From IMG/VR virus record IMGVR_UViG_3300005513_000024, positions 1 to 25,307 of that record: a DNA stretch of 25,307 nucleotides; one strand, written 5' to 3'. Below are positions 13,688 through 20,385 of this stretch, one piece after another; position 1 is the first letter of the stretch, and each line of letters starts with the position of its first letter. The stretch is from a virus. The position numbers were made by a program, and so were the translations under genes. The notes beneath the pieces are model-generated. The model saw only the letters and a list, made by a program, of their open reading frames with translations. It did no database searches and was not told the origin of the DNA.

Positions 13688-13861
13688 ATGTATGTCTTGA
13701 TCATACTCACTTGGATGGGCGGCTATGTCGATGGAGCCTCTGTTGTGTCGGTTGAATTCGTGTCGCAAAATAGCTGCGAGGCTGCCAAAGCAGAAGTGTT
13801 GAAGACCGCCGCGGAATGGAAGATCGGCGATAAACTGCGGCCATTCTGCGTATCAAAGTGA
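13688..13861 (+). CDS. small secreted or membrane-anchored protein, 57 aa
   Basis: The protein begins MYVLIILTWMGGYVDGASVV, a hydrophobic start that may be a signal anchor, followed by VEFVSQNSCEAAKAEV and ends PFCVSK, with two cysteines that could pair outside the membrane. I recognise this type as a recurring small rhizobial phage protein. ATG at 13688 has GGAAGG 7 bases upstream. The stop overlaps the terminase GTG. Confidence 0.6.
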   Translation: MYVLIILTWMGGYVDGASVVSVEFVSQNSCEAAKAEVLKTAAEWKIGDKLRPFCVSK

Positions 13862-15171
13862 CAACCCTCAAGATCAAAACGGCTGATGTGTTCGTGCCTC
13901 TGCTCGCGCCGGCACGGTACAAGGGCGCGTGGGGCGGAAGATGGTCAGGCAAATCGCATTTCTTTGGCGAAATGCTTGTTGAGCAGTGCGTGGTGTCGCC
14001 TGGGGACAATGCTGGTGTCGGGATGCTGGCGGTTTGCATCCGGGAGGTGCAGAAGACGCTTACTGACTCGTCCAAGCGCCTTGTCGAGAAGAAGATGGCC
14101 GACCTTGGCCTTGGAGAAGCCGACGGGTTCAAGATATGGCGAGATCGTATCGAAACGCCTGGCGATGGCGTCGTTATTTTCAACGGCATGGCTGACCACA
14201 CTGCAGAATCGATCAAGTCCCTAGAAGGGTTCAGGATCGCATGGGTCGATGAAGCTCAAACGCTGTCGGCGCGGTCTCTGTCATTGCTCCGGCCTACAAT
14301 CCGCGCGGCCGGATCAGAAATATGGGCGAGCTGGAACCCGCGCCGTAAGGCTGATGCGATCGATGAGTTCCTGCGCGGCCTCAAACCGGATGGCTCCATT
14401 GTCGTCAAAGCAAACTGGCGGGACAATCCATGGTTCAACGCTGAAGGTGAGGCTGAGCGGCAGCTTGACCTAAAGCTTTATCCAGAACGGTATGACCATA
14501 TCTGGGAGGGCGGCTACGCCAAGGCATTCGAGGGCGCGTATTTCGCCGGCATGTTGGCGCTGGCGAGGCAGCAGGGGAGGATCGTCAAGGGACTCAGCGC
14601 TGACCCGCTACTGCCGCTCCGGGCCTTCCATGACCTAGGTGGGGCCAGCGCCAATGCAGATGCTTACACCATTTGGATCGAGCAGTGGGTAGGTGACGAG
14701 ATCAAGGTGCTCGACTATTACGAGTCGGTCGGCCAGGTCATGGCGCATCACGTCAACTGGATGCGACAAAACGGGTATGAGAGCACGATCAATTACCTAC
14801 CTCACGACGGAGCCCGGCCGGATGGCTTTGTCGGCAAGCGGTACGAGGACCATTGGCGCGAGGCTGGATTTAACGTCGAGCCCTCGATCAAGAACCAGGG
14901 ACCGGGAGCTGCCTCGATCAGGATCGAGGCTGTGCGGCGTCTGTCGCCCAAATTCGTGTTCGATGAGGACAAGACGGAGGCTGGCCGGGACGCGCTCGGA
15001 TTTTACCACGAGAAGCGCGATCCTGAGCGGAATATCGGGCTTGGTCCAGAGCATGATTGGTCGAGCCACGCGGCGGACAGCTTCGGGCTCGGTGCGTGCT
15101 GCTACGAACCGCCGCGATCGACGGCGAATTTCAACCGCCAAATCAACTACGGAAATAGTGGATGGCGGTAG
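13858..15171 (+). CDS. terL: terminase large subunit (PBSX/Terminase_3 type)
   Basis: The packaging motor's ATPase-nuclease. The N-terminal ATPase has Walker A GGRWSGKS (26-33), Walker B RIAWVDEA (126-133, Asp 131 and catalytic Glu 132) and coupling motif SWNP (158-161). The C-terminal nuclease shows FHDLGG (Asp 259), LPHDGA (Asp 317) and SSHAADSFGLG (Asp 407), which fit the RNase H-like acidic triad. At 437 aa it is normal for the PBSX family. The start is GTG overlapping the upstream stop (GTGA). It should work with a small subunit, probably one of the upstream DNA-binding proteins, and with the portal that follows 41 bases downstream. Confidence 0.93.
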   Translation: MTTLKIKTADVFVPLLAPARYKGAWGGRWSGKSHFFGEMLVEQCVVSPGDNAGVGMLAVCIREVQKTLTDSSKRLVEKKMADLGLGEADGFKIWRDRIETPGDGVVIFNGMADHTAESIKSLEGFRIAWVDEAQTLSARSLSLLRPTIRAAGSEIWASWNPRRKADAIDEFLRGLKPDGSIVVKANWRDNPWFNAEGEAERQLDLKLYPERYDHIWEGGYAKAFEGAYFAGMLALARQQGRIVKGLSADPLLPLRAFHDLGGASANADAYTIWIEQWVGDEIKVLDYYESVGQVMAHHVNWMRQNGYESTINYLPHDGARPDGFVGKRYEDHWREAGFNVEPSIKNQGPGAASIRIEAVRRLSPKFVFDEDKTEAGRDALGFYHEKRDPERNIGLGPEHDWSSHAADSFGLGACCYEPPRSTANFNRQINYGNSGWR

Positions 15172-15212: not shown

Positions 15213-15791
15213 ATGGCGAAGAAAATGGACAATTCCACCCTGAAGGCAATGCTGGCCTCTGAGAGGACCAGTGCGCTTGCGGCCATGTCTGCCGCTCGGC
15301 TTGCAGAAGAACGCGCCGATGCGATGGATTACTATCTCGGCAACATGCGCAAGGACATGCCGGCGCAGGACGGACGATCGCGAGCGGTCTCAACGGATGT
15401 TTCTGACACCATCGAAGGGCTGATGCCCACCTTGATGGACATCTTCGCTGGATCTGACGAGGTTGTCCGATTTGAACCTGTCGGCCCCGAGGACGAGGAA
15501 GCAGCGCAGCAAGAGACGGATTACGTCAACCATGTCTTCATGCAGCGCAATCCCGGCTTCATGGTGCTTTACGGCTTTATCAAGGATGCTCTGTTGTCCA
15601 AGAACGGGATCGTCAAGGTGTGGTGGGATGAGCGCGAGGAGGAACAGCGCGAGACCTATTACGATCTGTCTGAGGACCAGTTCGCGCTGGTCGCCCAAGC
15701 CGTAGCCGAATCTGACGGTCAGATGGAGATCGTGGAACATACGGTCCACATGGGCGACGGCGAGCCGATCAAGGACGGGGACGCTTACTGA
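15213..15791 (+). CDS. portal protein, N-terminal part (192 aa, split gene)
   Basis: The sequence begins like the long podovirus-type portals: LAEERADAMDYYLGNM, SRAVSTDVSDTIEGLMPTLM, DIFAGSDEVVRFEPVGPEDE, then NPGFMVLYGFIKDALLSKNG and VKVWWDE. This is the N-terminal wing and stem region of the portal ring through which DNA enters. It stops at TGA after an acidic linker, exactly where homologues I know have a Pro-rich linker leading to a HDVT strand. The remainder is in a different frame at 15952, beyond a 53-aa frame. ATG at 15213 has only a weak GACAAAAG site upstream. Confidence 0.8.
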   Translation: MAKKMDNSTLKAMLASERTSALAAMSAARLAEERADAMDYYLGNMRKDMPAQDGRSRAVSTDVSDTIEGLMPTLMDIFAGSDEVVRFEPVGPEDEEAAQQETDYVNHVFMQRNPGFMVLYGFIKDALLSKNGIVKVWWDEREEEQRETYYDLSEDQFALVAQAVAESDGQMEIVEHTVHMGDGEPIKDGDAY

Positions 15792-15952
15792 TGGCCGACG
15801 AAGCCGAGATCGTGAGCATTGCCGCCTATCGAGCCGAGCGCGAGGAATACAAGCGCCGCAGGACGGAGCGCCACAAGCAACGGCTGCTTGCACATGCGAA
15901 AGAGGGCACTCCGATGTATCCCGGCGGGATCGATGACATGGATATTGGCTGA
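15791..15952 (+). CDS. 53-aa charged protein between the two portal halves
   Basis: The frame runs MADEAEIVSIAAYRAEREEY through a strongly basic helix (KRRRTERHKQRLLAHAKEG) to MYPGGIDDMDIG. Its ATG shares its A with the TGA of the portal N-part, and its own TGA shares bases with the ATG of the portal C-part (TGATG twice). It may be a distinct small protein or the diverged linker of a once-intact portal. No family was recognised. The basic helix would suit DNA or RNA contact. Confidence 0.6.
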   Translation: MADEAEIVSIAAYRAEREEYKRRRTERHKQRLLAHAKEGTPMYPGGIDDMDIG

Positions 15953-17652
15953 TGGCTCCTCCGGTCCCCGCATTGGCCCAGCAGGCCCAGCCGATGGCAC
16001 CCCAGCCGCCGCGCATGCATGACGTCACCATTGTCTCGACCAAGAAGCTCGCCCAAGCTAAGGTTATGGGAGTTCCGCCAGAGGAATTTGGCGTTGAGCG
16101 TGGCGCCCGATCGATCCAAGACTGCAATTACTGCTTCCATGATGTCGTGACCAAGACAGAAGCGCAGTTGATCGCTGAGGGCTATGACGCAGAGCAGATC
16201 AAAGCGCTCCAGCCCTATACCGGCCTGACGGACCTCGAGACCAACGCCCGCGACACGCTGCAAGAGCATATGTTCGGAGGCGACGGGCTGAATGCCGCGG
16301 CCAAGCCGGTCAAGATCACCGAGCATTACGTTCGGATGGACTATGAAGGCAAGAACCGGCCCTGCCTGTACCAGGTCATTACCGGAGGCGAGCAGGGCGA
16401 AATACTGCGCAAGGACGGCAAGGACTGCATCACGCCGTTCGACGCGATCCCGTTCGCTGCGACCACGCCGGTACCGATGACGCATCGGTTTTTCGGGCGG
16501 TCGATCGCCGAGCTGGTGATGCCGCTGCAACGCGAAAAGACGGCTCTTAAGCGTGGTGCTCTGGATAACATCTACCTGACCACCAATCCGCGTGTGGAAG
16601 TCGCTGAGTCCAACGCAGGGGCCAATACGCTGGATGACTTGCTCGTCTCACGCCCGGGTGGCGTGGTGCGCACCAAAACGCCTGGCGGCTTGAACTGGCA
16701 GACCGTCCCCGACATCACCGGCAGCATCTATCCGATGCTCCAATACCTCGATTCAGAACTCGAAACCCGCTCCGGCTTGACCAAGCAGGGGCAGGGGGTT
16801 GACGCGAACGCGCTGCAGAACCAATCTGCGACCGCAGTGGCGCAGGTGTTCTCAGCCTCGCAAATGCGGGTCAAGCTGATCGCCCGCATCATGGCGGAGG
16901 GGGTGCGGGATATCTTCTCGCTCCTCCACGCCACGATCCGCAAGCACGGCCAGGAGCAGCAGCAGACCGTCAGGCTACGGAACCAGTGGGTCAGCGTCGA
17001 TCCCCGCAACTGGAAAACCCGCGACGACATGACGATCAACGTCGGCCTTGGCTCGGGCGGGAAGGCGCAGCAGTTCGCCCAGACCATGGCGATCGCGAAC
17101 GTGCAGAAAGAGATGGTCGCAGCCGGCAAGGTCAATCTGGTCGGCGATCGTGAACTCTACAACACCGCGGCCGAGTTAACGCGGATCATGGGTCACAAGA
17201 ATCCCGATAAGTTCTTTAATGATCCAACGGCCAAGGACCCGCAGACGGGCCAGCTTCTTCATCCGGCACCGCCTCCGCAGCCTGACCCGAAGACACAGGC
17301 CATCCAGGCCAAGGCGCAGGCTGACCAGCAGACCGCAGCGCAGAAAGCCCAGATCGAGCAGCAGAAGGCGCAAAACGACGCCCTTCACCAGCAGATCAAG
17401 GCACAGGCGGAGATCGAGACGGCCAAAATCAAGGCCGATCTGGATGCCAAGATTGCGATCATCAACGCCCATCTGAAGACCGTTGAGGCTGAACAGAAGG
17501 CTGCGCACGTTAACGAACTGCACCGCACCAAGCTTGCCGGCCAGGTCGCGGGCATCGTAGCGCACGCCCACAAGCACGATACCTCGATGGCGCAGCAGCA
17601 GCAGGCGCACGAGAACGCTCAGGAACAGGCCAAGGATATGACCGATGGCTGA
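15952..17652 (+). CDS. portal protein, C-terminal part (566 aa, split gene)
   Basis: After a Pro/Gln-rich start (MAPPVPALAQQAQPMAPQPP) comes MHDVTIVSTKKLAQAKVMGV and PPEEFGVERGARSIQDCNYC, the usual middle of the long portals, then RFFGRSIAELVMPLQREKTA, the central helix region, and QTVRLRNQWVSVDPRNW. The last 130 residues are a Gln/Ala/Lys-rich coiled coil (about 430-566), equivalent to a barrel. Together with the 192-aa part the total of 758 aa equals a normal single portal. ATG at 15952 overlaps the 53-aa frame's TGA. It may assemble with the N-part as a two-chain portal. Confidence 0.85.
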   Translation: MAPPVPALAQQAQPMAPQPPRMHDVTIVSTKKLAQAKVMGVPPEEFGVERGARSIQDCNYCFHDVVTKTEAQLIAEGYDAEQIKALQPYTGLTDLETNARDTLQEHMFGGDGLNAAAKPVKITEHYVRMDYEGKNRPCLYQVITGGEQGEILRKDGKDCITPFDAIPFAATTPVPMTHRFFGRSIAELVMPLQREKTALKRGALDNIYLTTNPRVEVAESNAGANTLDDLLVSRPGGVVRTKTPGGLNWQTVPDITGSIYPMLQYLDSELETRSGLTKQGQGVDANALQNQSATAVAQVFSASQMRVKLIARIMAEGVRDIFSLLHATIRKHGQEQQQTVRLRNQWVSVDPRNWKTRDDMTINVGLGSGGKAQQFAQTMAIANVQKEMVAAGKVNLVGDRELYNTAAELTRIMGHKNPDKFFNDPTAKDPQTGQLLHPAPPPQPDPKTQAIQAKAQADQQTAAQKAQIEQQKAQNDALHQQIKAQAEIETAKIKADLDAKIAIINAHLKTVEAEQKAAHVNELHRTKLAGQVAGIVAHAHKHDTSMAQQQQAHENAQEQAKDMTDG

Positions 17653-17938
17653 GGGCCGAGAGATCACCATTGCGCGCGGGCGCCAAGCTGCGTCGTTGCT
17701 GGACGATGAGATTCTGAAAGGCGCGTTTGCCGAGCTCGAGCAATCCTATCTGGCAGCATGGCGAGCGACGACCATTGATAACGTGGCAGGCCGGGAAAAG
17801 CTGTTCTTGGCAGTCAACATCGTCGGCAAAGTCCGTGATCACCTTCAGCGCGTCGTCAACGATGGCAAGCTTGCCGATCGCGAGCTGAAAGAGATCATCG
17901 AGACGGCTGAGCGCAAGAAGCGCTTCGGGATCATCTAG
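17645..17938 (+). CDS. conserved small protein downstream of portal, 97 aa
   Basis: The protein MAEGREITIARGRQAASLLD, then ELEQSYLAAWRATTIDNVAG and LAVNIVGKVRDHLQRVVNDG, is a well-known short helical protein that follows portal genes in many prophages; its role is not established (possibly head assembly). ATG at 17645 overlaps the portal stop by 8 bases. Its TAG shares the CTAG palindrome at 17935-17938 with the stop of the convergent minus-strand gene. Confidence 0.8.
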   Translation: MAEGREITIARGRQAASLLDDEILKGAFAELEQSYLAAWRATTIDNVAGREKLFLAVNIVGKVRDHLQRVVNDGKLADRELKEIIETAERKKRFGII

Positions 17939-18306: not shown

Positions 18307-19401
18307 ATGACCGACGAAACCGCAACTTCAATTCCGGAGAGTTTTTCCGATCCGCGCGAGGCCGCGAACTGGCTATCGCAGCAGGACGAGAAGCCCGAAG
18401 CCAATTCATCCGCAGAGCAGCCTGATGGCGCCGCGGAGCACAAATCGGCCCCTGTGGCCGACGCTGCCCCTCTTGAGGAGGCTCCCAGCGAGACTGAAGG
18501 CAACGACCCGGCAGACAATCTGCCCCCCGTCGATCGCCCGCGGTCTTGGTCGAAAGACGACGAAGCCGAGTGGAATGGACTGCCCCGCGCCGCGCAAGAG
18601 AAGATTGCGGCTCGTGAGCAGGCTCGTGAAGCGGAGTTGCGTCGAAGTCAGAACGAAGCTGCCGAAGCCCGCAAGGCCATCGAAGCCACGCGAACCCAGG
18701 CAGAGAGTAAGGCACAGATCGGCGAGAAGGTGAAGACGCTCCAGCGCGAGCTGGACGAACTGACCTTCACCAACAACATGCAATTCGGTGAGATCAAGTC
18801 CCAGGCGGACCTCGACAAGCTGTCGCAGGAACAACTGAGGCTTGCCGCGTCTGACCCGGTTACGGCCGGCCAGATCGGAGCGTTTCTCCAGGCTTGGCAA
18901 ACCCATCAATACAAGCTCAGCGCCAAGCAGACCGAATTGAATCAGGCCCAGCAGGGCGCAACCAGCGAGTTTCAGCAGACCCGCGCGGCCTATGCGGCCG
19001 AGCAGGACAAGCTATTCCGCGAAGCCCTGCCTGAGTTCGCCGATCAAACGAAGCTGACCGAGGCGCTTAAGCGCGCCGTTCCCATCCTGAATGAGTACGG
19101 CCTATCAACCGACAAGCTCCAGAAGTGGTGCGAGTCCAAGGCAGGTTACGAGATCATCGGCAGCGCTGGCTTTCAACGGCTCGTTGCAGACGCGCTCAAA
19201 TATCAGGACGTGAAGGCCGCCAAGCAGGCTGTCGCAGCAAAGCCCGTGCCTCCCGTGCAGCGTCCCGGCGCCCGTCAGGCTGGAGGCGGCAACGTCTCGG
19301 CCCTGAAGGCCGCTTCTGATGCTTTCAACCTCAACCCGAACGCTAAAACGGCCACCGCGCTCGCCATGGCGCGGCGTGAGGCCGCAGCCACGAAACACTA
19401 G
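18307..19401 (+). CDS. head scaffolding protein, 364 aa
   Basis: The protein is acidic and disordered at the N-terminus (EEAPSETEGNDPADNLPPVD), then has RSWSKDDEAEWNGLPRAAQE, a recognisable motif of phage scaffolds in this position, followed by a long coiled coil (KIAAREQAREAELRRSQNEA) and a Pro/Gly-rich basic end. Scaffolds line the procapsid interior and leave on maturation. It lies directly before the capsid gene with 21 bases between. The position and composition are persuasive. Confidence 0.8.
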   Translation: MTDETATSIPESFSDPREAANWLSQQDEKPEANSSAEQPDGAAEHKSAPVADAAPLEEAPSETEGNDPADNLPPVDRPRSWSKDDEAEWNGLPRAAQEKIAAREQAREAELRRSQNEAAEARKAIEATRTQAESKAQIGEKVKTLQRELDELTFTNNMQFGEIKSQADLDKLSQEQLRLAASDPVTAGQIGAFLQAWQTHQYKLSAKQTELNQAQQGATSEFQQTRAAYAAEQDKLFREALPEFADQTKLTEALKRAVPILNEYGLSTDKLQKWCESKAGYEIIGSAGFQRLVADALKYQDVKAAKQAVAAKPVPPVQRPGARQAGGGNVSALKAASDAFNLNPNAKTATALAMARREAAATKH

Positions 19402-19422: not shown

Positions 19423-20385
19423 ATGACGATGCCCGTCAATACCCAAACCACCTATAGCTCCATCGGCAATCGCGAAGATCTGTCCGATATGATCTATCGC
19501 ATCGATCCGACCGACACTCCCGGCATGTCCGGCATCGAGCGCGAGAAGGCCACCGGCGTCAAGCACGAATGGCAGACCCAGGCGCTCGCGGCCGCGGCGG
19601 CAAACGCGCAGCTCGAAGGCGACGATCCGACCGACGTTGCCACCACCCCGACCGTGCGCCTCGGCAACAACTGCCAAATCTCCTACAAGATCGCCCGCGT
19701 GACCGGCACTCAGCAGGCGGTTGAGCACGCTGGCCGCAGCAACGAACTGGCCTATCAGGAGATGCTGAAGGGCCTTGAGCTGAAGCGCGATATGGAAGTG
19801 ACCGTCTTCGGCACCAACCAGGCGACCGCCACGGGCAGCTCTACCGTGGTCCGCAAGACCGCTTCCATACTGTCCTGGATCAAGTCCAACACGTCCACGG
19901 GCGGCACTTCGCCGGCCGACCCGGCCGCGGCGGACGGCACAGGCACCCGTACAGACGGCACCGGCACGCTTCCGGCATTCACCGAGGCGCGTCTCAAGAC
20001 CGTCCTGTCCGCGACCTGGATCAACGGCGGTAAGCCGAACCAGATCATGACGGGCGCCTTCAATAAGCAGGCGTTCTCGACCTTCACCGGCCGTGCGACT
20101 GCGATCGAAGACACCAAGTCCAAGAAGATCGTCGCTTCCGTCGATGTCTACGAGTCCGATTTCGGCACGTTGAAGGTGGTTGCAAACCGCTTCTCGCGCG
20201 CCCGCGACGTTCTCGTGCTGCAGATGGACATGTGGGCGATTGCCTTCCTCAATGGCCGCAACATGATCTCGATCCCGCTCGCCAAGACCGGCGACAGCGA
20301 TCGGCGCCAGGTGCTGTCTGAGTACGCGCTCGTTGCCCGCAACGAGAAGTCCTCGGGCGGCGTGTTCGACAACACATCGTCTTAA
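19423..20385 (+). CDS. major capsid protein (SU10 family, DUF5309), 320 aa
   Basis: The sequence fits the DUF5309/SU10 capsid family: NTQTTYSSIGNREDLSDMIY, RIDPTDTPGMSGIEREKATG, KHEWQTQALAAAAANAQLEG, then VSGT-like R-VTGTQQAVEHAG and FSRARDVLVLQMDMWAIAFL with LAKTGDSDRRQVLSEYALVA at the end. It would form the HK97-fold icosahedral shell. A Gly/Thr-rich insertion lies at about residues 155-185 (STGGTSPADPAAADGTGTRT). ATG is preceded by CAAGGACCAATCACC. High codon regularity suggests strong expression. Confidence 0.93.
   Translation: MTMPVNTQTTYSSIGNREDLSDMIYRIDPTDTPGMSGIEREKATGVKHEWQTQALAAAAANAQLEGDDPTDVATTPTVRLGNNCQISYKIARVTGTQQAVEHAGRSNELAYQEMLKGLELKRDMEVTVFGTNQATATGSSTVVRKTASILSWIKSNTSTGGTSPADPAAADGTGTRTDGTGTLPAFTEARLKTVLSATWINGGKPNQIMTGAFNKQAFSTFTGRATAIEDTKSKKIVASVDVYESDFGTLKVVANRFSRARDVLVLQMDMWAIAFLNGRNMISIPLAKTGDSDRRQVLSEYALVARNEKSSGGVFDNTSS

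Follow-up and report, generated by a model that had tools for sequence, protein, structure and literature searches.

Few machines of tailed phages are as conserved as the portal ring, whose protein is treated as a single chain. More than one portal polypeptide form does arise in proteolytically trimmed portals, such as lambda gpB, where a product of one gene is trimmed after translation. The portal described here differs from these in being encoded by two genes.

Its closest described relatives are the SU10-type portals (Pfam PF23899, SU10_portal) of phages SU10, PaP3 and Pa223. The window, which is the whole 25.3 kb virus record analyzed here, resembles these phages in its full-length portal sequence, in the gene order TerL-portal-scaffold-MCP and in its SU10-type capsid protein. 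Members of PF23899 with solved structures consist of one chain, whereas the window phage has two genes with a break in a loop of the wing region. In SU10, the part of the chain around this position belongs to the wing domain, and an N-terminal helix lines the capsid (PMC9509320).

Divided genes are documented among phage enzymes. In nrdA of Aeh1, gene 60/39 of T4 and gene 43 of phage 25, a contiguous gene has been divided and the resulting polypeptides reassemble, with complementation of the halves shown for split nrdA and split gene 43 (PMC2988022). Homing endonucleases lie at or near the break in these systems, and overlapping stop and start codons have been reported for mobE (PMC2988022). 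All of these are enzymes, from a few T4-like phages, whereas the portal is a 12-fold virion ring protein whose division is fixed in a large clade and is also found in neighboring lineages at the same loop. Split phage enzymes are already known; a search of open-access papers gave no earlier report of a split portal, a two-gene portal or portal gene fission.

The portal locus of the window phage

The split portal sits between the terminase and the scaffold and capsid genes, which is the normal order of a head module (Table 1). The lengths and coordinates of the three frames and the TGATG sequence at both junctions are exactly as given in the initial annotation, and its claim of three different reading frames was confirmed by offsets of 0, 2 and 1.

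Table 1. Features of the window and of loci with junction genes, with coordinates in the respective record
Feature	Locus	Coordinates	Strand	Evidence or remark
Terminase large subunit (TerL)	window	13858..15171	+	Pfam Terminase_3 E 1.7e-18, PHROG TerL; adjoins portal N part upstream
Portal N part, 192 aa	window	15213..15791	+	PF23899, PHROG 1216
Junction 1, TGATG, N-part stop overlapping start of 53-aa frame	window	15789..15793	+	sequence
53-aa ORF, C-terminal end PGGIDDMDIG	window	15791..15952	+	without Pfam/PHROG family
Junction 2, TGATG, 53-aa frame stop overlapping C-part start	window	15950..15954	+	sequence
Portal C part, 566 aa	window	15952..17652	+	PF23899; Pro/Met-rich start, remaining portal, C-terminal coiled coil
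Conserved 97-aa gene, overlaps C-part end	window	17645..17938	+	syntenic in relatives
Head scaffolding protein	window	18307..19401	+	PHROG 3927
Major capsid protein	window	19423..20385	+	SU10_MCP PF17236 E 1.5e-92
Tagged junction protein	L003	4198-4950		
Tagged junction protein	L009	4351-4941		
Tagged junction protein	L014	3783-4937		
Tagged junction protein	L037	2518-3750		
Tagged junction protein	L325	6405-7586		
Coiled-coil ORF between halves	L210	2076-2405		
Coiled-coil ORF between halves	L211	2851-3231		
Junction gene	L310	2538-3779		
PF23899 match broken elsewhere	G372	C1:2616002-2617716		

The N part matches positions 2-161 of the PF23899 profile (E 1.8e-55) and the C part positions 160-591 (E 6.9e-126). 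Because the two matches adjoin, the parts together represent one complete portal; they cover the whole length of the profile, as two frames rather than one, with a stop and a start between them in all close relatives. PHROG 1216 is divided in the same manner, with positions 9-172 in the N part and 186-701 in the C part. The N part is homologous to residues 25-168 of the portals in PDB 7sxk and 9nwm (29-162 in the PaP3 portal alignment), and the C part aligns with residues 182-658 of the PaP3 portal (PDB 7sxk). At 192 + 566 = 758 aa, the two parts add up to a portal of normal size, as initially proposed (PaP3 705, SU10 747). AlphaFold models of each half alone are of low confidence (pTM 0.31 for the N part and 0.35 for the C part), as expected of fragments, and constitute no proof; a Foldseek search with the low-confidence C-part model returns the Pa223, SU10 and PaP3 portals as top matches. 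Because of this low confidence, the position of the loop was derived from alignments and not from the models.

Alignment of both parts to full-length portals maps the junction to a variable loop of the wing region, at about residues 165-186 of SU10/PaP3, the exact residues being estimates from alignments to known portals. The break therefore lies inside the wing region, contrary to the suggestion that it does not fall within a domain. In one-chain relatives, the same site is a hypervariable loop of 0-82 residues between two predicted strands (...EIVEHT and HDVTIV...). It forms a minimal turn in L111 and L206, spans 11-17 residues in L109, L110 and L113, and reaches 58 and 82 Pro/Met-rich residues in L202 and L208. 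Judging from these sequences, the cut loop tolerates length change.

Distribution across viral relatives

Scanning viral contigs with the C part yielded 80 loci at 64-79% identity, and added scans with the N part, intact portals and divergent portals extended the set to 330 loci. Every locus with a C part at least 60% identical and both parts in order is split at the same place (154 of 154, none intact); L030, a 4.2 kb contig on which the order of the parts is reversed, was left out. All 14 phage genomes of 42-73 kb have one N match and one C match each, and a whole portal is absent from them. The split is thus present in every close relative, beyond what chance would give, and by this comparison of sequences it is a clade-wide trait, not one peculiar to the window phage.

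The same split in relatives, together with the conservation of both halves, upholds the earlier preference for selected coupling over recent decay, and its presence in isolate genomes excludes read errors. Two outcomes had been named beforehand as refuting, a single intact frame and intact relatives alongside an inactivated copy in the window; neither was found.

The halves are arranged in several ways among the 121 distinct main-group loci. Stop and start overlap as T(G/A)ATG in 40 of these and by 4 nt in 8, and two more have a short gap, while 71 have the halves more than 90 nt apart (12 with 91-300 nt and 59 with over 300 nt). Many N parts terminate in ...EATS, with the DNA sequence GAGGCGACGAGC-TGATG; a conserved GAGG lies 9-12 nt ahead of the junction and may serve the C part as its ribosome site. 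The TerL genes of L012, L031, L038, L050, L079 and L096 are of a different, distant type (about 30% identity), and the adjoining portal N part is still 66-81% identical, pointing to module exchange at the start of the portal.

Among isolated phages, Bradyrhizobium phage ppBeUSDA76-2 (OP596614) has a split portal with a direct TGATG. This phage, listed by its authors as ppUSDA76Be-2 and produced spontaneously by Bradyrhizobium elkanii USDA 76, is a podophage that was observed under the electron microscope and whose extent was set by reads from virions (PMC10127595 Table 1). Read mapping and TEM, not protein, served to identify its virion. In the OP596614 record, the N half is annotated as hypothetical and the C half is missing from the annotation; its split portal seems to have been overlooked until now, which exposes a gap in annotation.

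In bacteria, a sample of 399 genomes from the Bradyrhizobium family contains the halves apart in about 22 genomes and a whole portal in 2. In a wider sample of the order, matches outside this family are mostly unbroken frames where they are long.

Selection and evolutionary history

Across relatives, the median dN/dS is 0.08 in the N part and 0.17 in the C part, so both halves are under purifying selection. The nearest one-chain relatives are about 54% identical. In a tree built from the N plus C cores, with the loop left out, all main-clade rows including the window form one clade with a support of 100/100, and the nearest neighbor, L112, is intact.

Other splits at the same loop occur among intact relatives, in L210 and L211 (two separate contigs) and in L204. 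L197 and L203 are possibly split there too; each is known from one contig, whose overlapping frames an indel error could have produced, and the firm additional splits are L210/L211 and L204. L136, which has an in-frame stop and an intact sister, was excluded from the evidence. The tree requires five state changes, and a single change suffices in 0 of 200 bootstrap trees. The additional splits may represent repeated breaks or breaks combined with re-fusions. A stable two-gene clade together with breaks in its neighbors shows that the loop is dispensable for covalent continuity.

Contents of the junction

In compact phages, the junction is empty or holds one small gene. HNH endonucleases are found there in L050 (PF13392; several HNH PHROGs) and in L073 (PF01844, on the opposite strand). 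No homing endonuclease lies between the halves in the window or at most other junctions, and since only two junctions hold one, insertion of a homing endonuclease is a plausible but unproven origin of the split. The junction of L271 contains a 108-aa phage protein (PHROG 4256), and small unrelated ORFs occupy it in other loci.

In L310, the junction gene has weak similarity to ADP-ribosyltransferases (ART-PolyVal, below the cut-off) and to PHROG 873. L210 and L211, a lineage far from the window, have a coiled-coil ORF of 110-126 aa between the halves with TGATG on both sides, ending in NWENVAVMKMRKA(N/R)Y.

A probable two-polypeptide portal and its alternatives

The reading we hold to be highly probable is a two-polypeptide portal, with an old fission in the wing loop, coupled halves that co-fold into one subunit and a junction that hosts accessory genes. 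An ancestral single portal gene would have undergone fission where it encodes a variable surface loop, between the ...EIVEHT and HDVTIV strands of the wing domain. In compact phages, where the halves are adjacent, the stop/start overlap (T(G/A)ATG or 4 nt) would allow ribosomes to re-initiate and so produce both chains jointly. One wing domain would then arise from the pairing of both chains over the broken loop, and the ring would consist of twelve of these heterodimers. The broken loop would become an intergenic site for extra genes, with the 53-aa ORF as one of them, kept in step through the second TGATG. Directly supported are the division of the gene, its fixation throughout the clade, selection on each half, the lack of any other portal and the particles reported for one member; from these we infer translational coupling, co-folding and a ring of pairs. 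Neither proteomics nor a structure turned up for any two-chain portal, and purified halves might not pair, which would speak against the two-chain reading.

Two loci on single contigs do look damaged: L136 has an in-frame TAA and an intact sister, L119, and L041 has a C part that is closed early. However, more than 150 loci, drawn from many samples, share the split, isolate genomes have it too, and both halves are under strong purifying selection; errors of sequencing or assembly, or a portal gene in decay, are therefore extremely improbable accounts. If the frames were instead joined in translation by frameshifting, stop read-through or ribosome hopping, one chain would result, and it is consistent with this that in direct junctions the N part is always followed by a C part shifted to the -1 phase. 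In most direct junctions, however, the C frame does not stay open as far as the N stop but closes 3-42 nt ahead of it, with different sequences there, the window would need two shifts around the 53-aa frame, and relatives have 0.1-5.6 kb between the parts, including genes on the opposite strand. Because the C frame closes before the N stop or kilobases separate the parts, translational fusion is excluded for many members, and as a general explanation it is very unlikely. Removal of the middle by a self-splicing intron or intein would fit the homing-type HNH endonucleases in L050 and L073, but the N part ends in stop codons, some 40% of distinct loci lack any insert, the inserts are mutually unrelated, and an Rfam search of ten loci (the window, L006, L014, L013, L050, L073, L210, L211, L204 and L027) gave no match, which leaves this mechanism with next to no probability.

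The stem, clip and barrel regions all lie in the C part, and the N part follows its own course of evolution as a separate gene, which is what would be expected if the C part alone were the working portal and the N part now a separate protein. This is decidedly unlikely given that the N part retains portal-family sequence with a dN/dS below that of the C part, is found in 14 of 14 near-complete genomes and corresponds in SU10 to part of the wing, the domain whose N-terminal helix lines the capsid (PMC9509320). The initial annotation had further raised the 53-aa product as a portal component or inserted peptide, and as a third structural piece it could bridge both chains: it has TGATG coupling on either side, a motif scan of the fetched loci detects junction ORFs sharing its C-terminus (PGGIDD) in L279 (pairwise E 2e-6) and L024 only, and the distant L210 and L211 hold their own coiled-coil ORF there. 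However, the ORF matches neither a Pfam nor a PHROG family, no homologue came up when viral contigs were scanned, and most relatives lack it, including the close L026, L298 and L278, which have direct junctions. With T(G/A)ATG directly between the halves in 40 of 121 distinct relatives and unrelated genes at the junction in others (HNH endonuclease, M23 peptidase and others), a portal role for the peptide is unsupported and a bridging one quite unlikely. The 53-aa ORF is probably a lineage-specific passenger, not a portal piece.

The two-gene portal is common to a large group of Bradyrhizobium-type short-tailed phages, with mostly stop-start-coupled genes that are always cut in the same loop, and offers a natural split-portal system for assembly studies.

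Expanded prophage-like elements

Expanded prophage-like elements of Bradyrhizobium (L013-L029 and L084-L099) have kilobase inserts between TerL, portal N part, portal C part, the 97-aa gene and MCP and, downstream, additional incomplete copies of the portal C part. As inserts lie between other structural genes there as well, some of these elements may be decaying prophages, to judge by their gene layout, and the junction is not the sole insertion point.

Up to 5.6 kb lies at the junction in these prophages, mostly consisting of plus-strand genes ending in GGLLGLIQ(D/E)Y(M/L)RNN, and some of the tagged proteins carry an M23 peptidase domain (Peptidase_M23). The C-terminal tag, GGLLGLIQ(D/E)Y(M/L)RNNGY, is common to proteins with differing N-terminal parts, and 39 of 41 placeable cases lie between the portal halves (examples in Table 1). 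It matches no Pfam or PHROG family, and the one tagged protein tested had no GenBank phage match. The portal loop could conceivably serve as a cargo port, with the proteins encoded between the halves, many of them tagged, docking through the tag on the two-chain portal to be packaged and delivered with the DNA, although this is unlikely. Direct repeats or target-site duplications flanking the inserts appeared convincing by eye in L008 and L012, but only 1 of 71 loci reached p<=0.01, and this signal was discarded.

In one bacterial genome, G372, the PF23899 match is broken elsewhere (profile 479/480), with the C-terminal region in a separate frame.
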